Source: Chromera velia
Taxonomy: Eukaryota > Sar > Chromeraceae
Direction: 5' to 3'
Assembly (NCBI GenBank): GCA_018398765.1
Contig: JAHBMJ010001471.1
Location: forward strand, 1 to 30,322
Length of the DNA: 30,322 nt
The notes under the pieces: model-generated
Databases searched by the model: none
The model's input: only the letters and a program-made list of their open reading frames with translations
Told to the model about the DNA's origin: nothing
Position numbers and translations under genes: made by a program
Shown here: positions 3,501 to 27,612 of the stretch, piece after piece
How the letters are laid out: the number at the start of each line of letters is the position of its first letter
Position numbering within the stretch: the stretch's first letter is position 1

Positions 3501-6022
3501 TTCGCTTTTGTGCTTGCGTCAATGCTTCCTTCTAGGTTGTGCTGCACCTTTGCTGGTCGTCCTGTAGTCGTCCTTTTGGAAGTAAATCACCTTTTCTGTT
3601 GTGTTTATTTGCTGTAAGAAAATGTCTGACCGCGTATAGTTTCAGCGTGCCTCTACTGTATAACGGTGGGAGGGGGTGAATTGTTGAATTGACATGGGGA
3701 TCGAGGAAGGAAGTCTCGGAGGGAGGGAGGGAGGGGAAAGACGCTCTCTCTCTCGTTGTCTTCTTGCCACATGAACCGAATGATTGGTATCCTTCTTTCT
3801 TTGTGTTGCTTTGAGTGCCGTTGGTGGGTGCAGATCTACGAGACGAGTGGACAGGAACTGTTGAGGCCTTCCTCTGAGCTCGCATTTCTTTATTTATTCA
3901 TTTATTTATTTGTTTGTTTATTCATTCTGTATGAATTCTGTATGAAAATAAATGCATGCAGATTTACGAGACGAGTGGACAGGAACTGTTGAGGCCTTCC
4001 TCTGAGCTCGGAATTTTGTTGGCCGTGGCCGTCGCTCCTCCTTTACTGTATGCTGCAAGTGTGCAGGCGTGGAAGTGTGAGTCCGTAATTGTTTTTCCCT
4101 TTCTGTTCTCTTTTATCTTTTTCCCCAGACTGTAGGATTGTCTGCCTTGCCTCTCTTTCTGTCGTTCTTCGATTCGTTTTTTGGTGTCTTGTCTCTCTCC
4201 TCCTGTCTGCTGAACTTTCGGTCAATTTCTCTAGTGCTTCTCTTCGTGGTTCCTTCTGCTGATCTCGGTGTCTTCTTTTCTGACATGACTGCAGATTTGA
4301 GCTCTGTGAAGTGGGCGGAGGGAACTAGGGAGACCCTGGAGTGGATCCGGACTTTTCTTGCTGGGTGGGTGGGTGGGTGGGTGGGTATTTCATTCTTCTT
4401 TTTTGTCTCCCATTCATTCCGTTTTTCTTTTTTTGTCTCGCGTTTTGTGAAGGGGAAAGGGAAGTGGATGCATGTGAATGCTTCCTGCCTGTGCGTGTGC
4501 GAGTGATTCGGTTCATTTGGCTTTCCCTTTTCTTTTCTCTCTCCGTACGTCCACACATCCATGCATGCATCCATGCAGAGACCCCATCCCTGTCCAACAT
4601 ACATCCATGCATGCATCCATGCAGAGACCCCATCCCTGCGGCCTCCGAGAGCTTTCCCTCCCCCTCCGAGGAAAGGGAAAGGATGGGAACTAACGGAAAC
4701 GGAAGAGGGGGAGCCAGGGCGTCGTCGAATTTTCAGCAGCAGCAGCAGGAAGGAGGACCGATGCCCTTCCCCGGACAGGGACAGGGAAGCCGTCCTTCGT
4801 CTGCGAGACGGCAGTCACCTCCAGGGTCTCAGTTCGGAGACGGGGACAGAGGGGGGGTGTTGGGAGAGAGAGAGTCAGAGGACCTTGAGAAGACCCGGTT
4901 GAAGAGGGTGCATGAGGCTGTGGAAGAGAGAAGGGTTCTTGAGAAGGTGAGGGACTTACTTGGCTTCTACTCTGTGCCCTCCGCTCTTCCTTCGTGCTTT
5001 GGCCATTCGGAAGCAGTTAGTGTTCCTCTGATAGATCCCATGATTTTGTATATCTTTTCGCATGCTTCTAGTTTGACTTTTATGCCGTCCCTCATTTCTT
5101 TGTGACTTACATGGGTATAAAAGGAGAGGCGTCCGCTCTTTTTCTTTCTGGCATGCCTTTTTGCCTGTCTTGTATGGCGTTTCGTGCACTCCCCCCCAAC
5201 CTTTCTCTCTGTCTGCATCCATGCAGGAAGCACGACGGAGCAGAGACAGAGAGGAAGCGTTGCCTGAGGACAGGGGAGTGGTGATCATCAGAGCCTTGTA
5301 TGGGAGATGGAGGAGAGTCAAGGGAGGGGCGCTGGTGGCAGAGGAGGAGGGGAACCAAGCGTCGTCCTCCTCTTCCTCTTCTTCTTCTTCCTCCTCTGCA
5401 GTGGCAACAGGAGGAGGAGAGAGGCCATCAGGTGGGCCTCGTGTAGGAGGGACCCTCTCTCACTCGACTTCCTTTTCCGGTGACCTCTCTTCCTCTGAAG
5501 TGAGTCATCTGGGGATTCTGGACAGTTCGGAGGGCAGGTGGCTGAACGTGACTGTGCCCCTGCAGGCGAGGGTGAGGCAGGAGGCAAACGTTGAGCAGTT
5601 GACCTTCTACGGAGGTTCCAGCAAGGCCGGGCAGATTGGCTTCTGTGACCCTGGCATCCCCTCCTGGTGGGAGGAGGGGGCCGCGTCGGACCTCCGTCTT
5701 CGGGTCTGGTCAGTTGGACGATGAGAAGAGAACGTAGACAGACAGATAGACAGACAGGCAGATAGACAGACCGAAAGAAAGAAAGTAAGAAATAAAGACA
5801 GAAAGAAAGAATGAAAAGAAAGATTTTTGAAGAGACGCCATTTACCTTTTTTGTTTTTTCTCTTCTTGTGTTTCTTCGTCTCTGTGTCCGTCCCCTTGCT
5901 GCAGGGTGAAGGTGAACGGCGTCCCCTCCTACCGAGAGTTCGGAGACCGGGAGCCCGTCATCATTCCCTGGGGCATTTTGATGCCCTCAAAGACGCCGCC
6001 GAAACCCAAAACTTCGAATTAA
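542..6022 (+). CDS. DNAJC11: DNAJC11-like J-protein, C-terminal part (DUF3395 family), 5' end outside window
   Basis: Exons 542-730, 1288-1334, 1728-1946 (or to 1994), 2319-2527, 3275-3314, 3962-4076, 4295-4364, 4625-4946, 5227-5708 and 5905-6022 join in phase to about 600 residues ending at a TAA. Seen: a beta-strand-rich half (exons 1-4), a hydrophobic segment (ELGILLAVAVAPPLLYAA) in exon 6, then a charged linker, and a C-terminal domain with RGVVIIRALYG, LNVTVPLQARV, SKAGQIGFCDPG and LRVWVKVNGVPSYREFGD. These align in order with human DNAJC11, which has IIVNAWYGKF, DVTVPLQ and SKAGLPGFYDP. Known: DNAJC11 is a mitochondrial J-protein associated with MICOS at cristae. The N-terminal J domain must lie left of position 1. 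Oddities: exons 8-9 carry an extra glycine/serine-rich insert with Gln and Ser runs, so the protein is longer than human. Uncertain: the end of exon 3. Two phase-0 donors fit (GTGGGC after 1946, GTAGGC after 1994). Confidence 0.85.
2955..3255. repeat. 72-bp tandem array, four full copies plus a stub
   Basis: Four consecutive 72-bp units lie at 2955-3026, 3027-3098, 3099-3170 and 3171-3242, followed by a 12-13 base partial copy. Copies 3 and 4 are identical by eye, while copies 1 and 2 differ at a few bases. Each has a CTGCCTGCCTGTCTG pyrimidine start and a purine-rich GAAGAAAGG middle. The array sits in intron 4 of the DNAJC11-like gene and ends about 20 bases before the exon 5 acceptor (AG at 3273-3274). 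Because 72 is divisible by three, an open frame runs through the array on both strands. I regard that as a by-product and not as a gene. Confidence 0.9.
3831..4010 (+). repeat. Duplicated 3' splice junction of DNAJC11-like exon 6
   Basis: A 52-bp block (CAG plus the first 49 bases of exon 6) occurs at 3831-3882 and again at 3959-4010, 128 bp apart, differing at one base (ATCTAC versus ATTTAC). Between them is a TTTA/TTTG-rich spacer. Only the downstream copy continues into the rest of the exon, so the upstream copy is a decoy acceptor plus a truncated exon head. Confidence 0.9.
4555..4638 (+). repeat. Duplicated 3' splice junction of DNAJC11-like exon 8
   Basis: A 38-bp block occurs at 4555-4592 and 4601-4638 (offset 46). 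It contains the ATGCATGCATCCATGCAG intron end and the first 14 bases of exon 8 (AGACCCCATCCCTG). The downstream copy is the one that continues in frame. Confidence 0.88.
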
Positions 6023-7322
6023 GTGAATTCATGAGTTCTTCTTCTGGGAGGGAGGGTGGCCCAAGTGAAGTGCCGACAGATGGAAGAGAAGAGAGGAAAG
6101 AGAGCTTAAAAAAGGTATCTATTTCTTTAATTCAGCACTGAAGTCTCACGATGATCGAAGGCCAAGGCGGACTTGCACGCCTGGTGCCTGTAGTCAGGGG
6201 TAAACTCGGGGGAAAAAGGCTTCCTCTGGGTCCGTCAAGGGATTGATTGATAGTAATTTGATACAAGGTGACTAGCAGAAAGATGAAGTGATGTTCTGTC
6301 CGGCTGATGCACAGTTATAATCTGAGTCATGAAGTTTGACGTGATGGTACATAAAGTCTAGGATTAAAAGTTTCAGCTTGGCTGTAGACTTACTTTCTCA
6401 GTCTTTGAATCGTTGAAATACCACCGTAATACCACGGATTACAGCAATTTTCTTAAAATTTTTATAATCAGATACTAAGTGATAGTGCTAACCTATATAG
6501 GTGCCAACTCTAGTGCCAACTAGTGATTTGATTATGTATAAACGTTTAGATTTTATTCTTGTCATGAATTTTAGATAGAATTGTTTGCCGACTTAGTTAA
6601 AATTTTAGTTTCTATCAAAAATAAAACTTAAAATTTAATTCCTAATAAATTGACTAGTGTAGCAATGACTACGAGTCTAGTGTATTTCTTCTTATACTAT
6701 CTTTATTAAAGTAAAGTTTTATTTTATATATGCTTTTGTTCTTATCTTTTTAAATGTACTAGCTAGTACTAGCTCAACTTTACTTTAAAATATACTTTAA
6801 TGGTATGAATTTCAAAATCTCAGGTCCTTCTAGGGGTCCTTTTCGCACCATTTAGCAGGGGCGACAGTGCCGCGACACCTCGACATAGCGGGAATTAAGG
6901 CCTAGCGCGGAACTAATCAATCAATCAATTATTGCAAAACTATAAACAATCAATAATGAATTAATTAATGAATTAAAATTACAGAGTGTATGAATGAAAT
7001 CAGGGTATTATGAAATTTGAAATGCATGAAACTTGAATCTAGAATAAAATTTGTATTGCATAGCATCGCATTAATGTTCTATATTTTTCCCGTGGTCCAC
7101 TGCCACTGCTGGAGACCGGCTTGCACCGTTGTGACTAGCGTTGTGAGTTAAGTGAACGTACAAGGAGCGTCAAACCGATCCCAGTGACCCGCCAGGATTG
7201 TCCCGGCCGTCATCGTTGCTAAAACAAAGGCGAACAGGCTCATTATGAAGGGATTCAGTCGAATGATGACACGCGTTTTCAATTATTGTCCCCACCCTCT
7301 CTTTGTCTCCCCGGGCCCCCCT

Positions 7323-7364
<42 letters not shown>

Positions 7365-7386
7365 TTACACTCTCTCTTTCTTTTTT

Positions 7387-7430
<44 letters not shown>

Positions 7431-7432
7431 TT

Positions 7433-7465
<33 letters not shown>

Positions 7466-7560
7466 GACTAAAAAACAAATCCCTTTTAAATCACTGTGCG
7501 CTGCCTAGGCACAATACCGGGATGAACAGCAATGCACCATACCCGTGACTACACCTTTGT
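6023..7560. other. Intergenic spacer between convergent genes, AT-rich island plus microsatellites
   Basis: This lies between the DNAJC11-like stop (6022, + strand) and the ankyrin-like stop (7561, - strand), so it must hold both 3' UTRs. From about 6400 to 7080 it is strongly AT-rich, unlike the GC-balanced genes on both sides. Several AATAAA-type words occur (for example near 6619, 6646 and 7043). I see no credible coding frame, tRNA or rRNA gene. Confidence 0.7.
7326..7465. repeat. Compound microsatellite (AC)n-(CTTT)n-(CT)n-(AC)n
   Basis: An AC run (about 7326-7360) is followed by a short CT-rich link, a long CTTT run (about 7376-7425), CT repeats and a second AC run ending near 7464. 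It lies about 100 bp from the stop codon of the minus-strand ankyrin-like gene, probably in its 3' UTR or just beyond. Confidence 0.95.
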
Positions 7561-10500
7561 TTATCCTGGAAGCATCCGATGAACCCAAAACAGAATGTGG
7601 AAAGCAAAGTACGACAAAACACAAAGAAGGCAGAGGAACCGAGCAGTCGGAGAATCACAAACATCACCTTTGCGGTTCTTCTGTTGCTGCCGTGCCCTCC
7701 CCGTTTTCCTTTTCCGAGCAGCAACAGCCTCCGAATCGAACCACCAACGCCAGACACCAAGTACGAACGACAGCCTCTCCAAGACCTCCGACGACTGCCA
7801 CTCCCTCCCTTCCCCCTGGCCCTTCCCATCCTTCCCGACAACGACCACAAGCTCCTCCAGCCTGTCAACGTGTTTCGAAGAGAGGTGTCGGAGTAGATTC
7901 AAATTTCGAATTTGCCTCTCCCCAACAGCCTCGACCAACCAGCGAGTAAAGACTTCAAAACACTCAACTGCTCTAGCAAAAGACTCCTCCCAGCCACGAA
8001 AATCAGACGACTGCAGCCAAAGAACTCCCCTCGCATACCGACTCTCAAGGAGGATCGAGGCGACCTGAAAGTACGCAAATTCGGGTCCCTTCTCATCCAT
8101 TTCTACTGCGAGGTCTCTCAGGTACCCTTGCCTCTTTTGTGAGTTCAACACCTGTGTGGAAGCAAGCGCAAGAATTTCTCGAACAAGGGCAGGTTTCTGG
8201 AAATCCATAAGGAAGAAAGGACGAGAATGGCAACGCATCAACGACCCTGTAGTGTAGTAGCGAGCCTCCACAGGCTCGTCTTCCTCCCAATCGCACGACA
8301 CGCACTCAACGTAAAAGTCCCATCCCCAAGGCAACGCATAGCGGACTGCCGCCGCAGCAGAGGGATGGAAATTTCTTCCTGCAAACAGACAGCAGAAGAC
8401 AAGGCAAAAAGGAATGGAGAAACACACACACACACACATTGATGCGGTCATAGATTTCCTTTTCTAGCGCATGTATGCACACTGACACGTTCCCAGTAAT
8501 CGACAGACCATCTCTTGCTCATCACCCTCTTTTATCCACTGTGCGTGTGCCTCTCTTTCTATCACGCATGCATGAAGAGAATCCGGGCGGCAGACAGCCG
8601 CATATACAGACACGCGCTCATGCAGTTACTCAACAGGCTCACGGCACGAAGCTCGCTCTCTTCGAAGTGGCTGACCATTGAGTTTCATCTTGCTTGAAAC
8701 GAAAGACAAAAGCTCGACCCCCTCGGCCTCCTCCCCCCTTCTCCACAGATCCTCCAAAAAAGCGTCCACCCTGTCACTCCAACTCATATTCTCCCACTCC
8801 GATTGCAGGCCCCAACCGCCCCAACGGGGATGCGCGGCTGGTTCCAGCATGTTTTGGGGCCTCACGGACCTGTCGGGATTCCAGACTTGAGAAAGAAGGG
8901 AAAGGTTCGAAGCAAACAGGCGGGCGGGAAGATCGACCCCCCCCCACTTCGTCGGACTGTTCCTTCTCAGATAGCCTGCGAGCCATGGAAAGTTTTTCAG
9001 AAGAGCCTCGCAAATGTCGAACCTTTGGCGTCTGGCGGCGTAGCAGAATGAAGCCTCCGTCAAATCAAGCTCAAGCACCCCGCGGCGGCTTTCCGACCAA
9101 ATTCCAGTCATACTTTCCAGCTGCCGCGCAACCTCTGTCGCCACGTTGTCGATCTTTCCGCTCTGCACAATGCTCTCGACAACAATCACCGCGTGGTCGA
9201 GATGACTCACATGGACGTCCTCCACTCTGCCGAGAAGAGCATCCGGCTCTTCCTCTTCTTGGGTGTTTGTTTCTGTCCCGTTGTCAGCCTCGGGGTCTGG
9301 CAAGGATAGAAAAATGTGAAATTTCTTCTCGACAAGCCAACGAGACAGTTCACCGAGAGCACCAGAAAACCCCATCACACCTCCCCTCTCCCTGTAACAA
9401 AAATCACCATCTTTGAGAGGGAAGGCAACACCAAGACTCTTGCATCTCTCCCACAACCACTCTAGCATATCAGGAGACAATCCGAAGGGCCTCAACCCCC
9501 ACCTATGCCGGTCCTCCTCTCCATGCGGAAGCACATCCAACACTCTTTCCGCGAGCTTCGTATCCCCTTGCGCCAATGAGTTCCAGAGGACATTTTCTAA
9601 AAAAACAATTGTTTTATGGTCGGAAACATCCAGACTCTCGAGATTCAGAGAGTCAGCACACTCCGATCCTCCACGCAGCCCAAGCCTGACTGCCGTCAGC
9701 ACCCGCTCATTCACATTACAGCGTGCCTCCCGATCCCGCCCATCCCCAACAACCAAATCTTCCTCCTCAACTTCTTTCCAAAAAGAGCCTAACGACTCCA
9801 CTACAGCCACGCGTTGCTTGTCCCCACTTTTTTTTTCCATCAAATGTAACGGCTGACGAAGCGGCAGCACCCCTGTGCGACGACGCCAATCGCCCCCCCT
9901 GGGTCTTTCTTCAGACCAACAGGAAGGGCGAATGCGCCACTCTTCCGGATACATCCTAAAGTCCTCACACTCGTCCCGCAAGAGTTTCAGAACAGATGCG
10001 TGCCCATTCTCCAAAGCAAGCTCAGCAAGGCGAAACAACACCGGGCTCTCTCTTGCAGTTCCCTTGTCCCAATAATCCTTTTCCTGGACCCTCCACAACA
10101 ATCCCCACTTTCTCCCTACTCGGTTCAACTGCGCCTTCAAAAGCTCCACCCTACCTCCGAACGCTGCACCTTCTAGACAGGCAATCCAGCAAAGAACTGC
10201 GCGCACTTCGGGCAGAGAAAGTGCAACCTCGTCGGCGTCCAGTCTTTCTACACAGGAAAGAGAGGGAGACCAGGCCGGAGACGGGAGACGGCACTTCGAT
10301 CCCGTCTCCACCACACGTATCAGGTCTGCACGTCCATGAAATGCCAAGACGAAGAAAAGGGAATCGATGCTCGGAGGTGCAGGCAGGCAAAGAGCAAATT
10401 GGAGAAGCTCAGAAGATGCCCCACCCTCACCCCCCTCGAAAAGCACGAGAAGATCGGTATGGGGGGAACCTGCAATCTTGAGGGCCGTCCTTCTGAAATC

Positions 10501-10605
10501 TTTGTTGATCAGATGAAGAGATAAACACCCTGAGGAGCCCAGCAGCTGGACCAAAGAAGCCCGCACACACTCCCTCAGAACGAACTCGGGTCGGGAAAGA
10601 CTCAT
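7561..10605 (-). CDS. Hypothetical protein with weak ankyrin-like helices and a C-terminal membrane anchor
   Basis: Two exons are seen, 8676-10605 and 7561-8378, in phase 1, joined through an intron with a TTTGCAG acceptor (about 915 residues). I chose the ATG at 10605 (MSLSRPEF...). An open frame extends slightly upstream but begins with TTG. Segments such as LAFHGRADLIRVVE, LENGHASVLKLLRDE and AARRQRFDICEALL resemble divergent ankyrin-repeat helices, although no full consensus repeat is visible. The opening LGSSGCLSLHLINKDFR faintly recalls an F-box. Near the C-terminus a basic patch (ARKRKTGRARQQQKNRK) precedes one hydrophobic helix (FLCLLCVLSYFAFHILFWV) a few residues before the stop, as in a tail-anchored protein. 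A second donor of the same phase (exon end 8643, GTGAGC) would add 11 residues. Function is unknown. The ankyrin assignment is an inference. Confidence 0.62.
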
Positions 10606-11309
10606 CCGATTGTGTGACCCGAGCAAGCCTAAGGAGCTGGTAAAAGCTGTGCAAGTTTCTGTCAGAGACGGTCAAAGGGTTTCGAGGTCTCCGATTTCCG
10701 AGAAGCGCCACCAGCGATACAAGTCAACACACGGATGTTTGTCACAACTGAGAGACTCGGCGAAGACGATCCAACCTGGCAGTGTGTTCGATTGTCTGCA
10801 TGCCCGAAAGTCCTCGCAGATCGGATCGATCGACTTCCATGCAAAAAAGTGGCTTAAGCTAGCTAGCATTAGCTAGCTGACTCCGCGCAGCTAGCTCCAC
10901 GCCACGGCCCCGCGCGCAGAATTTTGGATACATACGATTCCGTACGCCACGTAGACGGACATGCATATATTATAAATACATGCAACATGCATCATGCAAC
11001 ATGAATTAAGTGAAGCGCAAAAATCAATTCAAGAAGATCGATCGACCCAGCTAGCTGAATTGTCGTGCTCGCATTGAATTTTATTAATAATTGAGAGCTG
11101 CTTCAACCCTCGATCAGTTGTGATTGGTGTACGTGGCGCTCGTCCCATCGATCGAACCCCTTGCAACTGATTGCTCTGACAACTGGTGTGCGACGCACAG
11201 TCTGGCAGACTGCATGGCCGGTCTTTGGGTTTGACAACTGAATCACTCTTTGAAGGTCTGAACCATAGAAAAGACGCTTCTTGTTTCTCGTATCTCTTCC
11301 AGAACGAAG
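10606..11309. promoter_or_regulatory. Divergent intergenic region, probable bidirectional promoter
   Basis: This region separates the starts of the minus-strand ankyrin-like gene and the plus-strand acidic-protein gene, so both promoters should lie here. Seen: dense short palindromes between about 10857 and 11070 (repeated AGCTAGCT, GATCGATCG, ATGCATGC-type words) and a TATATTATAAATA stretch near 10966 that could be a TATA element. The 11110-11300 part contains several CAACTG words. A CTCTTCCAG at 11294-11302 could be an acceptor of a 5' UTR intron. No coding exon can be supported. Confidence 0.4.
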
Positions 11310-12478
11310 ATGAAAAGAATCAATAGTCGCTTCTTCTCGATTTCCCGTGAGAGTCAAGAGCTTGCTCGGGAATCAGAGATGAAGAGAGTCAGATCCCGGA
11401 ATGGCATTGCCCCCAAGCGCACTCGAACCGAGTCAGGCCTCCCTTTCACCGGCTTCAACCTGCTGATGCGTCGACCCGCTTAACCATCAATGACTTCTGA
11501 TGTGCAGGCCGTCACGCGAGGTCATTGATGTGGACACGCTCCCTGAAGACTCTGTCAACCGGGAAGGCTTTGTGTCTACGCCAAAAGCCGTCTACATCGA
11601 TTCGGACGATGAAGATCCAGACCCTTTGAATGAGTTTGATGAATGGACTGATCGTGATTTTGACGAAAGCGAGGACGATGACTCCAACAGGTTGAATCTC
11701 CTCGACCTTGAGCCACGCGATGTTGACCAATCGGAATACAGTCTTGATTTTAATGAATGGACTGATCGTGATTTTGATGAAAGGGAGGAGGAGGGCTCCA
11801 ACAGATTGAATCTCCTCGACCTTGAGCCACGCGATGTTGGCCAATCGGAATATGATATTGAGTTCGAAGGCGACGAGCCAGGTGAGAACCTCTGGAGTGT
11901 TCGAAGCAAGAACACTCATGTCGAAGTCCTGTCATGGTCCAAAGAGAGATGGCCCATTCATTTTGAATTTCTTCCTTGCAGAAGATGAAGATGGCGAAGA
12001 GTCCGTCCTTGCTCTGTCTAGCGATTCTCGCCCAGAGCCTCTCAAAAGGGTACTTTGCCCTGTCGGTGAGAAGCTAGTTCTGGATCGATCGTCTTCGCTA
12101 TGGCGCCATGAGGACGATAGAAAAACGTTTCGGTTCCATGAAGACGTTAAGGATGACAGGTTGAAGACGTTTTCAACAGAGGTTGACAACCGGTTCGATG
12201 AAGACATCGACACAGGAAAGATGAAGAAGGTAGATCACCCCTTCAAGGCTTGCATCTCGCGTGTGCATCGGATTCGTTCATGACCGATCGTTTGATTTCT
12301 GCAGGACTTTGCGTCGTGCATGGGTTCGTTTTTGGGACAGCTTCCTTCGCTGATCAAGCAAGAAGAGAAACGCATCGAGGACCTCCAGGAGCAATACGAC
12401 TATTTTCTTCCGGACGCTGTGTTTCGAAGAAAGTACCAATACAGTATCTTCCTTCGAAAAACACAGTACTTCGCGTGA
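11310..12478 (+). CDS. Small acidic, probably nuclear protein with SIM-like motifs and an internal 38-residue duplication
   Basis: Exons 11310-11431, 11508-11881, 11982-12229 and 12305-12478 join in phases 2, 1 and 0 to about 305 residues ending in TGA. The start could also be the in-frame ATG at 11379. An in-frame stop at 11259 limits extension. Seen: a basic N-terminus (PKRTRTE) that could be a nuclear localisation signal, then EVIDVDTLPEDS and AVYIDSDDEDPD. Both match the hydrophobic-plus-acidic pattern of SUMO-interacting motifs. Two copies of a 38-residue unit beginning EWTDRDFDE and containing NRLNLLDLEPRDV follow. Exon 3 encodes EDEDGEESVLALSSDS and charged sequence, and exon 4 ends SIFLRKTQYFA. 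No enzyme family is recognised. The first 75-base intron (GTCAGG...GCAG) is the least certain join. A GTGAGA overlapping the stop codon leaves room for a further exon. Confidence 0.6.
11641..11868 (+). repeat. 114-bp in-frame coding duplication
   Basis: Units at 11641-11754 and 11755-11868 encode two tandem 38-residue copies (EWTDRDFDE... to about QSEY). The 3' parts are nearly identical at nucleotide level, which suggests a recent duplication. The acidic centre differs (ESEDDDS versus EREEEGS). Confidence 0.85.
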
Positions 12479-13509
12479 GAATCTGCCTCCCAAGAAACAG
12501 CGGTAGCATGGTTGATGCACGACTGTTTGGACCATTCAAAAGTTTGGCTTCCGATACCCGATCTACTACCCGATTCCAAGCATGCGGCACTGGAGCGGCA
12601 GGTCTATATACTGGCATCAAGCAGATCTAGAAGCAGACTGACCTTTCAACTCTGGTTTCAACTGTAATTGTATGTACATCCGGCCGATGCTTTTAAGCAG
12701 TCCTCTTGATATTACTTATAACTTCTTTTCTAGTTTCTCTTTCAATGACCTTTTTTTTAGCAAGACCTAGAGCCGACCTTACTTTTGAAAGTGAGCAAAT
12801 TAATTCTGAGGCTCTAATTGACGCTAAGCGTCTGCATTTATTTTTTTATTGACTTTTTTTTTTTAAGCTACTGAGGCTAGTTTACATGGCTACTAGTAAT
12901 TCAACAACTAGTTTAGCAATCGACACGCCAATCATCTGCCATGATATACATCTTCTTTCACCATTATTAATGTTTTTGCCTTTTAGCAATGTACATACCA
13001 CACTTCATATTTGCTAGTGTATTGATTAATTGGACCATTAAAAAAAAAAATCAAAAAATATTTTATATATATACATCTTATTATATGATCGATGATGATG
13101 ATGATGATGTTATGATGATTGAGGAATATCAACATTATATAGTGCCAGCAGCTATATGTCACTCATGTCAACCTAGATGTCAACTTAGCTAAACGCTATA
13201 ATGTGATGAATATTGTTAGTTAGATTGTTTGACATGCAGATATAGGTACGTTGACATATTGATCAATGTAAAAAGAAAATAAATAGGAAGATTAATGCAA
13301 GCTAGGAATCTTTTGATAATATGTAGTAGAACCTCCGTGCTATCACTATTAAAACTACTATTCATCTTCTAGTAGTGCTGCTGCATGCCTTTACTAGTGA
13401 AAAACACAGTGTGTGGCGTGCCTAGCGGCGTGCAATCATGAAATATTTTATGAATTACAGTAAGCAGTCACGGTGTATCAAAGTGGGCAAGAAAAACGTT
13501 TTTTTCTTG
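12479..13509. other. Intergenic AT-rich spacer between convergent genes
   Basis: This contains the 3' ends of the acidic-protein gene (+) and the giant kinase gene (-). From about 12640 to 13440 it is markedly AT-rich, with poly-T runs near 12749 and 12855, a poly-A run near 13040, and a GAT/ATG repeat at about 13087-13120. Several ACTAGT words occur. No gene is supported. Confidence 0.65.
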
Positions 13510-15200
13510 TCATTCCTTCCTGTGCGATACGGTTTCCTTCTTACTGCTACCATCTTTCACAGCCTCGTGAGAAGAAGAAGTACCTTGCGCAAGTGGGAAA
13601 CAGAAGAGCGAAAGAAAGTCCAGGGGAGAACTGTAGGCTCTCCGTCGAAGTCGGAAGGTCGAGAAAATTTCTTCTGGTTTCCCCATCACCTGCCAATCAG
13701 TTGCCGTTCCCGGAAGAGGGGACGTCGCTTTTGCTGAGTCCTCTCCTTTCTTCGCACTGCTCTCTGACAACGGAGGCAGAATGTCAAAACTCTCATCCAC
13801 CCCCTTGCTTCCCCCAACCGCCGTTCCTGTCTTACCGTTTTCTCCTGTGTCTTCTCCCTGTAGCGTGTCGGGGAATTGTGAGGGGAGGGAAGGAATGACG
13901 ATAGGCCCCCCGAGGAAAGCGCAGGGCGGGGGGGGCGGACAGAGAGTGATCAAAGCTGCCCGTTGGGTGTCTCTGAGGCCTGTGGGCCGGAGGGGCACGA
14001 GGAAAAGGGCGTCTAGGGTCACCCACAGCGCGTGGCCTCTGACTAGGGAGACTCTGGGGACCTCTCCTGTGTCTCCTGTAGACAGGCCCATTTTGTTCGC
14101 CGTGTTTCGGAGAAGCTTTTTGGCCTCCTGCAGGGGGTCGGTCGGTCAGGGGACAGGAAATGAAAAGAGAACTTTGAATTCAAGCGGATCGAATAAAGAG
14201 GAAAGTCGAATCAGACAGAAGAATTAAGAAGAAAAGAGCAAAACGGGAATGTAAAAAGGGCCCGACAGTAATGGTCGAGGGACTGCTCTCCGTTTAATTC
14301 ATGACTTGACACAAACACACCCGAGAGAAAATCCTCAAAGCGCATCGAGATGTTCTTCACAATCAAATGAAAGAACAGACAGCAAACAAACCTCAAATGC
14401 TGCCTGCAGCAAAGCCCCTCCCTTAGGCCCCTTCTTTGCAGCGCTCTCATGGGGTTTTCTCATTCCGACCACAGCATGGAGAAATGGAAGCTCGGGCAGA
14501 GTGCAGGGGATGAGCAGCTTCTCCTCAAGAAGGTCCGTCGATTTGGCGGCTCGAATTTCTCTCATCACAGGGAGCTCCAGGGGAAATCGGCCGGGGCCCT
14601 TCTCGTCCGGAGGGGCCGCCAAGAGCCCCGGAGCGGGCCCAGTTCCGAGAGGTCCGGAAAGAGACGAGAGAGGCGGTAGGGGCAGAGGAAGAATTTGCAC
14701 ACACGAGTCCAGTGGGGATGTGGCGTCTGCTCCCACGTTGGCTGGAGTGTGTGCGAAGGAAATGAGGGGCCTCATGTACGTCGCCACTGCCTTTCCTTGG
14801 AGAGCGCTCAGGACTTCCGATATCGCCGCCCTGCATGCGCATACACATCAGAGTTGAAAAGGATGCATGCACATTTGATTCCAGGCATGCAGCGGTCATA
14901 CCGGGTGTGAGCTAGGCGAAGGAAAACAGTAAAACACAAAGGAAATACACAGATAGAGACCTGCAGCGGCAAGCCTCAAAAGATGCCCACCTCTTTCTTG
15001 CTGGGCTGACTGACCAATCCTCCGCCTCCAGTCCCTCTGCCGTTTTGGACAGCACGCGTCTCGCCACCACGACCTTCTCAGAAGGCCCTGCCAGTGTCGG
15101 CAGATTCCCCTTCTTCCCTGCGGGGGAATTTCTCGTCAGACCCACCAGTCCGTCCATATCTCCTCCCGTCTCTTTCTCTTTCTCTTGTCGCTTTCCAGCA
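13510..15200 (-). other. C-terminal extension of the giant kinase (about 400 residues), no recognised domain
   Basis: Exons 24 (part), 25 and 26 encode a Lys/Glu-rich stretch, then AAISEVLSALQGKAVATYM, a Pro/Leu-rich region, and a tail with FLGGPIVIPSLPS and Ser/Lys-rich sequence ending SHRKE. I recognise no domain. It could mediate docking to an axonemal or cytoskeletal partner, but nothing in the sequence shows that. Exon 24 has three donors of the same phase (exon ends 15015, 14991, 14961). I chose 15015 because GTCAGT is the form most used in this gene and the join reads smoothly. Confidence 0.5.
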
Positions 15201-18200
15201 TCCATGGTCTCCTGCAGCGCTTTAGACCTCACCACAGCCCTCTCGACCTTCTTGCAGACTTCTGAGAAGACAATAGAGGAAACGGGAGCGCCATCAGCAA
15301 CGCAGAGCACCGGAATGTACCTGCAAGGAAGAAGAAGAACAAATCGGAGTACAAGGACAGCACAGCAATGCATTCATTCCAAGTCGGAGTACAAGGAACA
15401 GATCTCGACCACTTGCTTGCAGTCAAACGTGAAACGTGAACTTATGTCTTCTACGTGCATGTCAAATGAAACTTCTTCCTTCCGACTGACTTATCCACGA
15501 CTCCAGGGAAAGTCTCTTTGTGGGCCTCGTACCGCTCTGAGAATTTGGCATCGCCGTCTTCCTCCCTGCGTACAAGCCGAGCTCGCACCTCAGGCTGCAG
15601 AGGGGCCAGGGGAGGGGAATGGATGGTAAAGAACGACGAGATTGCTGAATTCCCTTTTTTTGTTTTTCTTATCTGTGTTTGAGGCCACAACGCTGGGAGG
15701 AGTTCATCATGTCCCTCCAGTTTCGATGCAAGGCCGGCTCCCGCAGGTTTTTTTTGTGTGTTTTGTGTTCAAAGAACTGACAACACAACGAGGGGCACGA
15801 TGCACGGAAAAATGGAGAGAGAGAGAGAAAACTTAAGACGTGAAGTCGCGATAAAGAGTCGAAAGAAGCATGCCACTGATCCAAAACATTTATCCACAAA
15901 CAAGGAACACAGAAGCGTCTGCAGAAAAAGGAGGAAAGACATGCACCAACCTTGGGAGGTGGAGGTCTGAGTTTCAAATTGTACTCAATTCCGGTGACCT
16001 CATCGTACCTGAACAGACGAATCGATCGAGGGGCTTCTGACATTCATCTATCAACAAGAGGAGAAGCCGTCATTTGAACTCAGAAGGAGCGTGTGCCGTT
16101 CGTTAGCCTCAATCCTCCTGTCTTGCCCCTTTGGAGTTTCTTCCTCTGATCATTTCTTTGTGTCATTTTAGCGTCGAGGCTCTACATGCACCCCAATGGC
16201 TGCATGATCAACTTGCATCATCACTTCATCTGACTGTCTGACTGTCTGTCTGTCTGTCTGAAAATTCAGCAGCTGTCTGCCTGACCTTCTGAGCAGAATC
16301 CGCTCCTTCAGGTTTTCCTCCTCCACGTCCAAATAGAGGAACACAGAGGGATCTCCTGCAGGGCCGCCGTTTTTCTGCAGGAGAGACGCCTGCCTCTCCG
16401 TGAGGGGAAAACCGTCGAGGACCCATCCGTTCTTCTCGCAGTCCGGTTGCTCGAGCCTCTCCTGCACCCATTCACCCATCAAGCAGAATTGACATGCCAT
16501 CAATCTATCAGAAGTGTGTGTGTAGTCATCGAGATAGTCATGTGTCGCAATCGAGATTCCAGAACAGTTCTCGAAAAACACAACGTCTACTCGCTTGTAG
16601 GTAAAAGAAAGACAAACATAGTCACTCACTCACTCACGCACTCACACACCCTGATGGCTGCGACGATCGTCTCATCCGACAGCGGCTCTCCCTTCTGCTT
16701 GACTGCCTTCGCCTCCTTCCCTGGATCTGTGCCCCTTCCCTCTGCGTCTGCTACAGCCTCGTCTGGATGAACGTGGACGAGACCGAAAACTTCAGAGAGA
16801 CGGGCGCTCTGCTCGCTCTTCCCACTTCCTGGAGCGCCTGCAGGCAGAAGGAAAGAAAGAAACATAGGAGAAGTAAGATGCGTGATCAATCAACTGGCCT
16901 CTTTGGCTCGAAAAGGTCTCCTGCTCCACCCTTTTGATCCCCTTTTGCTGCTGCATTCCTTCCTTTCCATTGGACTCGATCTGCATTCCTTCCTTTCCGC
17001 ACACTTGTTTCCTTTCCCCAGTGCCTCCACACGATTATCTGGATCCTGTGCTGCTGCTTTTTTGTATTCCCTCCAGCAGTACAAGGAGACAAAGAGGCAA
17101 AAGAAGAAACGAGCTTCTAGGCGTCCCTATGAGCCGGCATGCCCTGAAATTCCTTCCGTGTGATGCCTCTTCAAAAAGTCTCTCAAGCATATCTATGTTA
17201 AATCCTTGCTTAAGTCACACATCCTTGCCCTCAATTTCCTGCCTGACCTCCCACGATGACCGTGAAGGGTTCCCTCAATGAGTCTGGACCCCCTCCCTTC
17301 AAGGCCCGGCGTGTTCCCTTCATTCTCAGCACAGCACTGAGGGTCTGCAGGAACACGGCCTTCGTCCCCTTGGAGCCATCAATGGCACACAGACGCTTCC
17401 TGTAGGCCGCCAGTAGCTCCTCCGTTCTCTCTGCGTACTGTCTGAGAGTCTCCATCACCCCCTCATCTGAATCTTCTGCTCGGATAAGCAGACGGTCCTT
17501 CACTTCCTCCTCCTCTGGCAGGGGAATGCCCGCAGGGGGGTCGTAGATCTGGTTTGTCTCCGGATCCCATCTGCATGCATAGAAGGAAGGAAGCATGAAG
17601 TTTGTCTCCGGATCCCATCGGCATGCATAGAAGGAAGGAAGCATGAAGTTTGTCTCCGGATCCCATCTGCATGCATAGAAGGAAGGAAGCATGAAGAGCC
17701 GGTAAATGAATATGGTGGATGTGGTGCTCAAGTTCATTCAATGAGTTGGGAGCATTTTGAGGGCATCAGCCAGTCCGAACTCAAAAGTGGAGACCCCAGC
17801 TGTACCCTCATTGCATGATTCATCAGGCCAAAGACTAATGACAAGCAGGGAGACACCAAGTGAGAGAGTGAAGCAGCCAGCCGTTTGGCTTTCCCTTGGC
17901 GTCCGTCTGGATCTCTGAATGACGATGATGATGATGATTCCACATATTTTTCTTAATTCTCCTCGGGCGCACTTACCTTCTTTGTCCCATTCGTGCAATG
18001 ATCTTCTCGGCAGGAAAATTGAAAGACAGCGTCAAGTCTTCCTTCGCAAGATCTCCAAGACCCGTCAGAAGCTCCGATTGCGCCTGCAAAGTTGGAGTGA
18101 GTGATTCAGTGTGGTGACAGTTTGCGTTGTTTGGCTCGCTGACGTGCGCACACAAAATTGAATGTACAAGGACCGATTCATGTCTCTTCTCTCTTTCTCG

Positions 18201-21200
18201 TTTGACTGTTGTACGGCTCTCTCTCTGCCTGCTTCTCTTGTAGTCCAAACTCCCTGAGATGTGTCACTACTCAGACGACACTCATGCCCCACATGCACTC
18301 TGCCTGTTCGACTTAAGTTTCTGACCGTTGAGTCCGGAATGTTGTCGAGAATCCATCCCTTGTGCCTGCAGTCAGGCTGAGAGAGGCGGACGGCAAGAAG
18401 CTGCACTAGAAGGTCGTCTGGGATCTTGGCGTTTTCATTCCCTGCCGCCTTCTCCTTCTTGACTGCTTCCTCAATGGCCTTTGCCTCCTTCACCCTCGCC
18501 CTGTTACCCCATTTCAGCAGAGAGGCCACAGAGATGTGGGGGGCGTCTAGCCGCTTCCGCATCATCTGCAGCACCGGGACGCTGCTCAGGTCGCTCCCGG
18601 GGGGGGCTGCACCCATAGGAAATTTGTTTGTTTGCAGAGGGGCGAGTGTTCATGCACGTACGCACACGTCAACTGCACAGCTGATGCTTTCAGAGAACTT
18701 GATTCAGAGAGTACCGGACCTCCTCTATGCAAGTTGCGAATAAACATAAACGAAGCGATGAAAAAGAGGGGCACAAAGAGGGAGGGAATGAGAGACGGGA
18801 CACACCGACGCGCAGACGGGACGGACAGCGAGACGGCTTGTTTCACGGAAACCCATGCAGACCAAAGAAGACTATCAATCACTGACTGACAGAAAGCCAG
18901 GACTCTAAGAGGCCGCGAGGGTTTCTGTCTTGCGATCTCCGCGAACTCCTCAATCTTCACAGAGAGACACCCCACCATCTGAAAGAGATTTTCCATGCAT
19001 GCAGGAAGGAGGATGACTGCATGTGTACTATGCGACACCATCTGAGATTTCTCGCCTGTATCTCGATCCGTCTGTGAACGACCACGGCAGGCAGATAGGT
19101 TCTTTTGCATGGCTTCACGGCTGGAGTGAATGTAAGAAGAGAGACCTAAAGAAGCTGTGGGCATGGCGGTCTGGCTGACTGACGTCGTCAAGTGCTTTTG
19201 AGGCGTCCGTCTTGGTGTTGTTGTCTGCGTAGGCTTCCAGGAGGGCTCCCGCCGCCTCCTCGTATGTCTGCACACACACATTCATGCACAAGTATACACA
19301 CATGCCCTATGTCTGCCCATACACATTCATGCACAAGTATACCTACATGCCGTATGTCTGCACATACACATTCATGCATAAGTATACGCACGTGAAGCGT
19401 CCATCCGTTGGAATTTGAGAGAGATATCGCATCAATGCGTGGACGCACAGTCTCTTGAAATAGCAGCTTTGGCAAAGAGTTTCGCAAAGCCTTGCAGCTT
19501 TCTACGTGCTAAAAGAGGCAGACAGACACACAGCCTATATGCTTCCTTCTTGTCCACCCTTCGTTTCACACAGACTACATCGTCTTTTCTCTCAGACGGA
19601 CAGAGAGACAGACAAGCAGACAGATACGCAGGCAGATACACAGACAGACACACAGCTACAGAGATACACACACACAGAGAAAGAGAGAGAGAGAGAGACC
19701 CACCTTCATCTCGACTGCCAGTGTCTCCTCCCTGTCCTCGTCTCTCTGGACGAGTCTGTTTTGCACTGCGTAGATGTCCTCTGGGGCTGTGTATTTGAGA
19801 TGGTAAATCTTTCCCGTCTCTGGGTCCAGCCTTCTTCCTGTGACTCTCTCCTTGATCAGATCGTCGGGAAGTTCCAACAGAAGGAGACAGTCGGCAAAGA
19901 TACCCTCGTTGGCAAGAACGGACTGCTGAGCCTGCAGGTAGAGAGAGTCATTCAAGTTATACCAGAGAAGGTCAGGTTCCGTTCGTTCGTTCAGCTTTTC
20001 GAAAGATTACGTTTGAAAGAGTCTACATGGTTTACTTGAGGGACTTTAGACTTCTGAGAACCATTAGTGTCTCCAACGTCTTCCTCTCCGTACTTCTCTC
20101 TGCACACCCGTTTGTTTTTCAAACGGTCCTCTGGTCTCAGCAAGCAAGCGAAAGACTTCTCACTGAATTTTTGCTGTTTGACTCTCTTCTGATTGAACAA
20201 ACGTACTTTTGTTCTCGGAATGTCCGTGAGAACCCATCCTGAAAGTGACACGTCCGTTTGTGTGATCCGAGACGCCAGAAGAGAAGCAAGCAGTGCGTCA
20301 GAAATCGGTTTCTTCGGAGTGTTGCTGATGTGCCTGTCGTAAGCGTCACTTGCCGCATTGCCTGGAGGCTGGTCCTTTGCCCACTTGAAAAGATTCTCTG
20401 GGGTAATCACTGCGAGACCAAAACGCTTTGAGAGGGCCTCTGCGACCTCCGTTTTCTCTGAGGAGGGAGGACCTAAAGTCAGTCACAGAGAGAGAGAGAG
20501 AGAGAGGATTTTGTTAATTCAAGCGGTTCCTTCGTTAGTGATGCAATACCGGTGATTGAATGTATTTGACGATTCGATCCGTGTCTCCTCACTCGATCGA
20601 AGATCTTTCTTTTCTTCTTTTGGTCTGGGGATGGAAATGCACATCGTGTGGTCCAAAGACGCAAGCAACTCAGGGTTGTTATTTTCAGAACGTTCTTCTG
20701 GTGATGAGTCGATGTACCACTCCGGCTGCCTGACCTTGCAGTATGACTCTGAGAGGCACTTGGAGGATCTCATTGACTATCATTTTGTTGACCTCCTCCT
20801 CTTCTTCCACTGCATGGGCTGCTGTAGGGTTTGCACCGTCTCCTCCTGTCTCGTTGCCCTCGTCCTCGTCTCCGTCTCCCTCCGCTCCCTCTGCCCCCCC
20901 TTCTGCTGCTGCACTAGAGGTAGCACCCGGTTTCTTCTCCTCTGGGACGTCCTCTCCCTCTCCGTCCCCCATCTCCTCGAGTGCCATGCTCTGCTGGGCT
21001 CTCCTGGAGGTGATCTCTCTGAGGACAGACTTGAGGTCGCCCCCCCTTTTCTTGTACTCGACCACATCGGTGAGTGCCTTGGAGACACCCTTGAAGAGTT
21101 CAGACTCACAGACGTTGGCAGGAAGTGCTATGCATAAAACGCCAGACTCAAAGCTGCAGGTAGGCATAAAGGAAGAAAAAGCAGAGTAATGTGACAAAGG

Positions 21201-22363
21201 ACTCAGCTGACAAAAAAAGAACACATTCGACAAAAAGATACAAGGAGAGAAGAAACGACAGGTCACCTGCCGGCAGGGCGACTGCAGGGACCCACAATGA
21301 AACGCAGAGGCACTCTCCACAGCATACCTAGAGAGAGAGATTCCTTCAAAAAGAACAAAAGGATGAATACATGCACAGGTCCTCGCAGTTGGAAAGTGAG
21401 GGAAAGTCAGAGACTTGTCGTTTGCACATATGGAAGCAATGAAACAAGCATCATTGAGACGGACTGAGGCACGCGCAGAATTTGCTGAGCATGCCCTCCG
21501 CAGGTATGGATTCATTCTTTTTCATACAGAAAATGAATCAATACAGACACAGACTGACGCACGCGCAGAATTTGCTGAGCATGCCCTCCGCAGGTTTCTT
21601 CCACGCCGTGAGTCTCCTGGTGACCCTTTCTTCCGAGTCGTCTTCTCTGTGCACCAACCGGGCCCGCACTCTGTCGTCTGCCGGGGGGTTGGTCTTCAGA
21701 TGGAATGTCTCTCCCGTCTCGGGGTCTGTTCTTCTGAACACGATCCTCTCTATCAAAGGACGGGGGGGGGCATGGAGGAAGAACAGGAGGTCGGCACGAA
21801 TACCCGCCCGTTCAAGTGCCAGGGCCTGGGCCTGCACGCACAGATGGATCAAGCAATCAATCCACAGGTACAAACAAAGCAGCAGGGCGATCCAGAGGTA
21901 CAAAGAAATGACGCATTAAAACAGGACGGAGACCCCAATGACATGTTTGGAAAAGAAAGTAATTCTCCTTTCCGACAACTTCAGCGCATTCCTCTCTGAG
22001 CATTTCAGAAACGAATATTTACCTTCGTCTCATGCAATGACATGATTTCTTTCCAGTGTTGATAGACAAATATCAATTAAGCGTCCACGTTGAATAAACA
22101 GACAGGAGGATACGGAGGGACTGAACGGCAGACGGACCTACCTCTGTTTTTGGAAATCCGTCAAGACACCAGCCTCTCGTTGCCGCTGCGCTCTCTTCCC
22201 CTGCCCCCTTTCCTTCCGTCTCTCCAGTCTCCTTCGATGCGCTTGCTCCTCCTGCTGCCCCCCCCTCCTCCGTCTCCTCTGCGCCCTCAGAGGAACGCTT
22301 GGTGTCGTCCTCGTCGCCCTCCTCTTTCTTCTCCCGTGCAAGGGCTTCCTCAATCAGACGGAC

Positions 22364-22426
<63 letters not shown>

Positions 22427-24685
22427 AGCAAACGGACAGAATGCATGAGCAACAGAGAGAGATGAACGACAGACAGTCAGACTGACTCAGGATGGGTGGG
22501 AGGGAACGAAGGAAGCTGCAAAGCTTGGAACCAGTGAAGAAAGGAGGGCAGGAAGGAAGGAAGAAAGGAAGGAAGGAAGGAAGAACAGAAAACGGCAAGA
22601 TGCAGCTTGGCATGGCAGCTGTCGAAAAAAAAGGCGAGCGACGGACAGCACGGGATCAATAACAGAAGAGAATAGAATTTCAAACAGACCTACCACAGCT
22701 TCATCAGGGGGTTCGATGCCGTGTTTGTTCAGGTCTTGGAGCAGTCTCCGTGCTCCCTCTTCCCTCTGTGCCTTCTCCACGAGGAGAGTGAGGGGGTCGA
22801 TGTGCGTCAGTCCAAACTTCTCGGCCAGCAGGCGGCATTGTGTCGTCTTTCCAGAGGCAGGGGCACCTGCACGCGCATGAGGGACACACAAAAGGGATAA
22901 CCACACGAACAATGCAGACGTTTGGAAATACCTATAAGTGGCTCCGCAACGACTAACAAAAGATGACTGAGAGTGAAAGAAGAGCGTGAATGAAGGAGAA
23001 AGCAGACAAAGACAGAAAAGAAGGAAAAGACTGACCGACGACGAAAATCTTCATTTGTGCTCTGCCGTCTGACGGAGAAATCTCCTTCTCCTTCTCCGTT
23101 TCCTTCTCTGTCTCCCCCCCTTCCGCCTCTTCCTTTACAGTCTCCTCTGCTGCTGCAGGAGCTGCAGAGGGCGTCGATGACGATGAGAGCACAATTCCAG
23201 CCGCCTTGGTGGCAGCCTCACGCACGAGAAGGGCAACATTCTCAAAGTCCCCAGAGGTATCGATGGACACTTTCGTCTGAGTCCAACTGGCACACAACTG
23301 GGGGCTCTTGTAGCTCTGCAGGAAGTTTTTTTTTTTTTAAGTTATTTATTATGTATGAAAGTAAAGGCAGGCATCTGGGGGCTCTTGTAGCTCTGCAGGA
23401 AGTTTTTTTTTATTATTATTTATTTATTATGTATGAAAGTAAAGGCAGGCATCTGGGGGCTCTTGTAGCTCTGCAGGAATTAAGGAAAATGGAGACTGCG
23501 ATGCAAACATTGAAGAACATTCATTTGGGCCAATCAGGAAAAACAAAACAGATTCAAATGGATCAGGCTGGCCGGCGCACCTTTATTTTTTCCGTCAATG
23601 CGGCTGCGTCTGTGCATGGATCCCTCGGATCCGTCAGTCTTCCCTTGACGAGGGCGGACGCGGGTTTCCTCAACAGAGGGTGGAAGGGCTCCCCTGTGAG
23701 GCTGTCCACCTGCTTGTGCACTCTCCGGGCAAAGAGCTTCTCTGGGGGAGAAGAGAGATCGAGCCACAGGGAGGGGGAGACACCTTTCTTCTCAAGGAGG
23801 GTCGCACCGCCCTGCGAACACATTCAGAGATACGTATGTACATGTTTACTTGAGTGCCTGTCCGAAGATGAGTACAGTCATGAGGATCGTTTAGCATCAC
23901 TAAAGAAAAACAGAGGCTCAATACAGAAAGACTCATTGAAAGAGCGACCAGTCAACCAAGGCACTGACCGAAGTGAGGGGAAATCCTGTGAGAGCCCACC
24001 CCTTCTCAGTAGAGGAGCCCTTGGAGACGGCATCAGCCACAAGTCTTGACCCTGCTTCCTCTGGAAAAGGCTTCCCTTCCGTTCTGGCTGCCTGGAGCTC
24101 CTCTGCCACTGGGTCCGTCTTTCCAACAGGCAGAAGGCGGGAGGCGGCTATGCGTGCGTCAGCCAGGTCCTCGACGTCCAAAATCTCAAGACCAAGCAAA
24201 GAGTGAAGGATGTGACAGGCCGAGTGCTTTCCTGATCCGGGAGGGCCTGTGACTAGAACGCGGAGGGTAGTAGAGGGAGTAGGCCTAGTACCCTTCAGAC
24301 CCCCTGGAACTCCTTTGACCCCCTCTCGCCACTTTTCTACAACCTCCACAGATTTTCTGACCACCTCCACAAGGGCAGGGGAGGCGTCTACGTCCACAGA
24401 GACGTCTCTGCAAAAGTCCAGCACGCACCTCTGCGCTCGGATTGCGTCCTCCATTTCCTCTTCAGAAACGTCCTGGAACAAAAGTTTGTCCTCAGGCAGC
24501 CTCTCGAGACGGTTGACCACTTCCACATTGCCTGCAGACACACCGACGACGAAGGATAAAACTCACGATTTGGACTTGTGGGTGTGGCAGATGTTATCTC
24601 AACACCATAGACAGACATAGACAGAAATGCACCGATTGCAATTGACAAAGGCATCTGCATATTCTCTTTCTCACGCCCAGACACA

Positions 24686-24735
<50 letters not shown>

Positions 24736-27564: not shown

Positions 27565-27612
<48 letters not shown>

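Follow-up and report, generated by a model that had tools for sequence, protein, structure and literature searches.

The duplicated junctions of the window

The stretch of DNA analysed here, the window, is contig JAHBMJ010001471.1 of Chromera velia at its full length of 30,322 nucleotides (C1469 among the 4,040 contigs, 177.8 Mb in all, of the genome that we searched). It carries a + strand gene with a Pfam match to the DnaJ C11 C-terminal domain and a - strand gene with a match to ADK, and in both genes splice junctions lie inside repeated sequence. In three of six such cases the copies of host sequence are separated by what looks like the footprint, degenerate in one case, of a short AT-rich hairpin element, which recurs through the genome and is our main subject. 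Gene models here and below are our own, predicted from DNA alone by a gene finder self-trained on about 265 kb (586 junctions; mean exon 340 and mean intron 350 bases). They contain errors at arrays: the junction at 17552 is missed, and one at L011:5621, in a locus with a Pfam match to CLN3, is probably missed. At the training loci, predicted acceptors end in TGCAG with a period-4 TG pattern over about 20 nt upstream and no plain pyrimidine tract, and predicted donors favour a GTCAGT-like sequence. The - strand gene model (13510-28683) runs to about 2,600 amino acids; a search with part of it found adenylate kinase matches in two stretches, and P-loop motifs of a similar kind are repeated along its length.

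The six junction duplications of the original prediction are confirmed, all present in the sequence where it had placed them. On the + strand, a first host copy (3829-3882) holds TGCAG and a 49 nt exon head and forms a decoy acceptor; it is followed by an inverted-repeat element insert of 74 nt (3883-3956; the 20-mer element end described below is found exactly at 3933-3952, on the - strand) and by a second host copy (3957-4010) with the exon-adjacent acceptor, the exon starting at 3962. The copies are 54 nt long at a spacing of 128. The donor case, on the - strand, has the same build: an intron-side host copy with a decoy donor (21462-21505), an inverted-repeat insert of 46 nt (21506-21551), and an exon-side host copy with the donor (21552-21595; exon end 21563), with 44 nt copies at a spacing of 90. 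The third case with a footprint, 23289-23479 (-), has its array at 23298-23479 and consists of about 2.4 units (77/78) of TGCAG and exon head at the exon start 23315, and by eye a degenerate AT-rich element lies between the copies at about 23323-23374 and 23400-23452. No element was found in the other three: 4552-4638 (+), two copies of a 46 nt unit across the acceptor of the exon at 4625; 17552-17696 (-), three copies of a 48 nt unit across the acceptor of an exon that begins at 17570; and 19261-19394 (-), three copies of a 45 nt unit across the acceptor of an exon that begins at 19267, with just 7 nt of exon within the copy. The exon-distal acceptors do look like the decoys they had been taken for, but not every one has its own AG, which the middle decoy of 17552-17696 has lost.

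When all repeat arrays of the window are collected by one rule (n = 8), four have an acceptor inside, for 0.56 expected by random placement (P~0.0007), and one has a donor inside, for 0.53 expected (P 0.43; automatic gene model). The gene finder places junctions at the window duplications except at 17552, which the automatic model assigns to an intron, whereas on inspection the junction is evident. Two points weigh against the observation as it was first made: the window had been chosen for the junction duplications themselves, and its tandem repeats at 2955-3259, 11631-11852 and 26942-26998 span no junction. The first of these is an intronic, junction-avoiding counter-example with 4.2 copies of a 72 bp unit, ending about 15 nt short of a predicted exon at 3275; the second is two copies of a 114 bp repeat in a region that the gene finder calls intergenic.

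A family of short elements between host copies

In a DNA search with window positions 3900-4800, the stretch between the two copies of 3829-4010 is matched in many contigs, often in tandem arrays with periods of 119, 109, 127, 115 and 96 bases. The part common to the array units is an AT-rich inverted repeat; the remainder is a host piece that differs between arrays and is often an acceptor with an exon head. The element is an AT-rich inverted-repeat insert, mostly of 30-110 nt, with inverted ends TGCATTTATTTTCATACAGAATTC. The 20-mer element end TTTATTTTCATACAGAATTC has 870 genome matches at up to one mismatch against 0 for a reversed control, and 2,337 at up to three mismatches against 9; both ends within 30 nt, searched as one pattern, give only 7 exact matches. 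Contig C3687 (L009:2203-5659) has two large arrays of a 119 bp unit of host piece and element, in about 15 and about 9 copies, split by a 54 bp array whose unit recurs just upstream, and contig C3842 has four separate insertion records within 1.1 kb (L020:3396-4513).

To avoid selection on repeats, we took 32 loci solely for the exact 20-mer, with C505 and C710 excluded. The background for the repeat scores came from 521 further positions within the first 20 loci; its 95th percentile, 19, served as the duplication threshold. A flanking host duplication is found at 28 of the 32 loci (23 single insertions and 5 arrays), and the remaining 4 have none above threshold. In the single insertions the copies measure 21-56 nt (mean 39.1; mean identity 0.941) and the inserts 42-104 nt. 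Sixteen of the first 20 loci score above the threshold; the 99th percentile of the background, 49, is exceeded by only 3 of them, other arrays within some of these loci having raised it.

A search across all loci by the element motif and a repeat score of at least 20 gave 60 insertion records, with copies of 20-70 nt and inserts of 9-112 nt; they include neighbouring copies of one array and so are not all independent. The two host copies are on average 94-96% alike. The insert is 30-110 nt long in 54 records. The motif in the insert is how the records were found, and in only 6 of the 54 does it also occur in an outer flank of equal length. That the motif lies between the host copies alone in most records points to insertion with duplication of host sequence, and not to repetition of a unit that already bore the element.

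Of these 54 inserts, 30 carry the inverted-repeat core at both ends and 53 carry it at one end at least; among 838 control segments the proportions are 0.7% and 9.8%. The core begins 0-17 nt from the insert end, most commonly at 4 (16 of 83 ends), so the element ends are ragged. GC content is 25% in the inserts, 56% in the duplicated stretches and 49% in the loci. Six hand-chosen inserts were folded as DNA, and each does better than its shuffled versions do on average (z -1.9 to -8.3); the weakest is the window insert at 3883, which 9 of 200 shuffles equal. Relative to the gene, the two orientations occur about equally often (18 same, 14 opposite).

Insertions that had not been used for choosing regions number 12 in 233 kb, one per 19 kb, and the regions chosen regardless of the element, 70 kb in all, hold 2. 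A rough extrapolation, in which some of the regions had been chosen near elements, would put the genome total at about 5,000-9,000 insertions. One of the systematic regions, L040 (C3895:5001-10000, on a contig of 146 kb), has a GC content of 0.29 against 0.41-0.59 in the others, and has three open reading frames of at least 100 amino acids. Contig C1831, by eye the sole case of an opposite pair of ends (about 1.3 kb apart) among the 100 listed exact matches, was considered as a longer form of the element and rejected, as it is two short insertions. A search for the GIY-YIG endonuclease (PF01541) gave one weak match of 27.8 bits; for rotifer Penelope elements, the consulted portion of PMC3846280 gives target duplications of 8-10 bp or none.

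Position of the insertions relative to splice junctions

The 28 duplicated loci were annotated after one host copy and the insert had been taken out, to keep the repeat from shaping the gene model, and a junction was counted as straddled when predicted within the duplicated stretch, 3 nt or more from its end. In these collapsed models a junction is straddled at 18 of the 28 loci, 14 times an acceptor and 4 times a donor. With random placement within these loci the expectation is 5.6 (sd 2.0, maximum 15 in 5,000 trials), or by type 3.7 acceptors (maximum 11) and 2.7 donors (maximum 8). The other ten loci are called intron (5), exon (3) and intergenic (2). A null in which wholly exonic placements are barred raises the expectation to 7.0, with a maximum of 14 in 5,000 trials. 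This comparison disfavours, for the element-bearing cases, an account in which tandem duplications arise at random and purifying selection tolerates them in introns and at exon edges but not in exons. We consider that account very improbable, although it fits the 21 element-free arrays described below.

The 60 records show the same tendency, with 24 at acceptors, 11 at donors, 1 at both, 16 in introns, 6 in exons and 2 called intergenic. The last figure stands against about 20% of the 265 kb training set, a hint only, as the two sets of regions differ. The duplicated stretch covers on average 25 nt of exon and 17 nt of intron in the 21 acceptor cases measured; for the 11 donor cases the figures are 26 and 11 nt.

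For repeats in general, an initial test, run on Tandem Repeats Finder units under a strict complexity filter (21 arrays), found no excess: 2 at acceptors for 2.0 expected and 1 at a donor for 2.2. Because that filter had removed many AT-rich units, repeats were redefined as direct repeats at a lag of 25-400, with a single copy kept before annotation. The loci then give 52 arrays, 8 of them in the window. Outside the window, 15 of 23 element-bearing arrays have a predicted junction; many of the 23 come from regions fetched for the element and not for a junction. Among 21 element-free arrays outside the window there are 2 at junctions for about 2 expected (acceptor 1 against 0.95, donor 1 against 1.04), with 14 in introns, 3 in exons and 2 intergenic. 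The original prediction held that junctions are duplicated as such; element-free repeats at chance come close to what it had itself named as its refutation, a frequency at junctions no higher than elsewhere in introns. Its wider reading, of a process that targets junctions, is partly supported: the junction excess is genome-wide, but slippage or breaks alone, as the cause, find no support.

Which copy is spliced

Two genes allow a comparison with proteins of solved structure. In the uncollapsed model of L010, a match to proline iminopeptidase, 32 residues lie between two aligned stretches that are separated by 7 in the solved relative, and in that of L012, a match to endonuclease III-like protein 1 (as a fragment it reaches HhH-GPD in Pfam below the cut-off only), an eight-residue MFRV repeat is surplus with respect to 7rdt. 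Each solved protein accommodates a single copy, which suggests that splicing as a rule passes over the extra ones.

At the 18 loci counted above, the junction is still predicted within the duplicated stretch when one copy has been removed, which speaks against an intron edge that owes its existence to the element. The uncollapsed model of L010 makes every unit a mini-exon with a mini-intron, and mini-exons or new introns within element units are possible. L061:1320 and L070, modelled uncollapsed with exon on both sides, were considered as self-contained new introns; by eye they look more like ordinary acceptor or donor edges, and so we claim no intron gain.

Origin of the duplications

We think it probable that the element is a short non-coding hairpin mobile element that has spread through the genome and is flanked at its insertions by host duplications of 20-60 nt. 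The two strands of the target would be cut far apart, and filling in the overhangs around the captured element would leave the direct host copies on either side. Insertions within coding exons would presumably be lost. Those whose duplication covers an exon edge may survive, as splicing to the exon-adjacent copy would remove the element together with the spare copy, leaving a longer intron and a decoy splice site. Later exchange between copies may then produce the arrays of host piece and element.

Purifying selection by itself does not explain why exon edges outnumber mid-intron sites; since a survival filter alone would not yield the junction excess, insertion itself should favour exons or exon edges. 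Several results weigh against the mobile-element reading. The excess is slight for donors taken alone (4 against 2.7 in the 28-locus test), and 12 of the 32 end-selected loci, at just 420 bases each, offer little sequence for a gene model. The decoys show no clear decay, with AG intact in 22 of 24 acceptor decoys and GT in all 11 donor decoys; the acceptor next to the exon outscores its decoy in 13 cases, is outscored in 6 and ties in 2 (n = 21, p 0.17). In 11 of the 60 records the uncollapsed model turns the spare copy into a mini-exon, with an intron of 64-116 nt within the element-bearing unit. There is no target motif, no base exceeding 40% at any of 20 positions over 119 target ends. No empty site appeared in two DNA searches, where the short matches were element insertions (by position) or a low-complexity stretch, and no autonomous partner was found, one candidate locus having been read and transposase and reverse-transcriptase families not searched. 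Finally, the window cases at 4552, 17552 and 19261 are plain tandem duplications.

These three give weight to the main rival, in which staggered breaks near the exon edges of transcribed genes are filled and joined, with tandem duplications of 20-60 nt as the outcome, and abundant hairpin DNA is caught as filler; the plain duplications would be its filler-free form, and their 45-48 nt units fall within the range of duplication lengths. We regard this as quite possible. The variable duplication length, the lack of a target motif and the ragged ends, with the core starting 0-17 nt from the insert end, all agree with break repair, and Vaughn and Bennetzen (2014) reportedly describe small tandem duplications in rice that would fit it. 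In human and mouse cells, small tandem duplications arise from long complementary overhangs, according to the portion of PMC8355091 consulted. Random filler, however, would be mixed, and the inserts here belong to a single family whose ends can be recognised in 53 of 54 (the records having been found by the family motif); nor are element-free repeats enriched at junctions outside the window. An introner that makes a whole new intron with every insertion, with splice sites from the duplicated exon, would account for a short inverted-repeat element in genes, for the AG or GT that the duplicated pieces often carry, and for the L010 units and the 64-116 nt unit introns of the uncollapsed models. 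We nevertheless think it unlikely: the junction remains at 18 of 28 loci with one copy removed, published families with target duplications have 3-9 bp (excerpts of PMC9860276), and the unit spacing is divisible by three in 22 of 54 records for 18 expected (significance not tested). An assembly artefact in repeats is hardly credible, as the copies differ by substitutions and small indels and occur at many loci with different host pieces; long arrays such as those of C3687 would nonetheless suit it, as would the short reads from which the Chromera assembly was made (so the parts consulted of PMC4501334), if that is the same assembly.

A more specific proposal can be put forward tentatively: a new insertion mechanism in which a minute hairpin element enters through target cuts that lie 20-60 nt apart at variable spacing, without sequence preference, directed to the exon edges of transcribed genes. 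Such a mechanism, if true, would be a main engine of intron growth, decoy sites and junction-spanning arrays in the lineage, with thousands of events. The origin and growth of introns are a long-standing question, and here one insertion step would give a longer intron, a spare splice site and intronic sequence derived from an exon. With copies 94-96% alike, some insertions may be young enough for polymorphic sites, and the preference for junctions offers a way to test whether splicing, transcription or exon chromatin determines where DNA breaks.

Comparison with known systems

In the open-licence literature, judged by titles and the openings of abstracts, no item among those listed appears to report such element-linked junction duplications, and the main text of PMC9860276 does not name Chromera. 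The agent of the element-bearing duplications looks like an introner-like or MITE-like (miniature inverted-repeat transposable element) element with unusually long, variable target duplications. With the introners of Symbiodinium, Aureococcus and Amoebophrya it has in common that it is short, genic and present in many copies, a repeated sequence family in many genes of our models, with flanking direct repeats, a link to splicing and, as in some of their families, inverted ends. It differs in that introner repeats are of 3-9 bp (PMC9860276, in excerpt) or, in Amoebophrya, 3-5 nt (PMC7789003, likewise in excerpt), whereas here they are 20-60 nt and variable, 21-56 nt in the 23 single insertions, and in that, in the collapsed models, the element lies at the margin of an intron that is independent of it.

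MITEs are also short, non-coding and of high copy number, with terminal inverted repeats as here. Their target duplications are short and fixed for each family, unlike the long and variable ones found here, where the element ends are ragged and the target sites share no motif. Patch-mediated or fill-in tandem duplications at staggered breaks resemble our cases in their length of tens of bases, in ends independent of sequence and in an optional insert, and the direct duplications found here likewise lack a target motif. The insert in those systems is absent or unrelated between sites, and here it is one conserved family with thousands of end copies. Intron gain by tandem genomic duplication, as reported for the potato RdRp gene (PMC4974935), likewise starts from a duplicated stretch with splice sites, one copy of which may become intronic; in Chromera velia it is an existing junction that is copied, an element lies between the copies, and no new intron is claimed.

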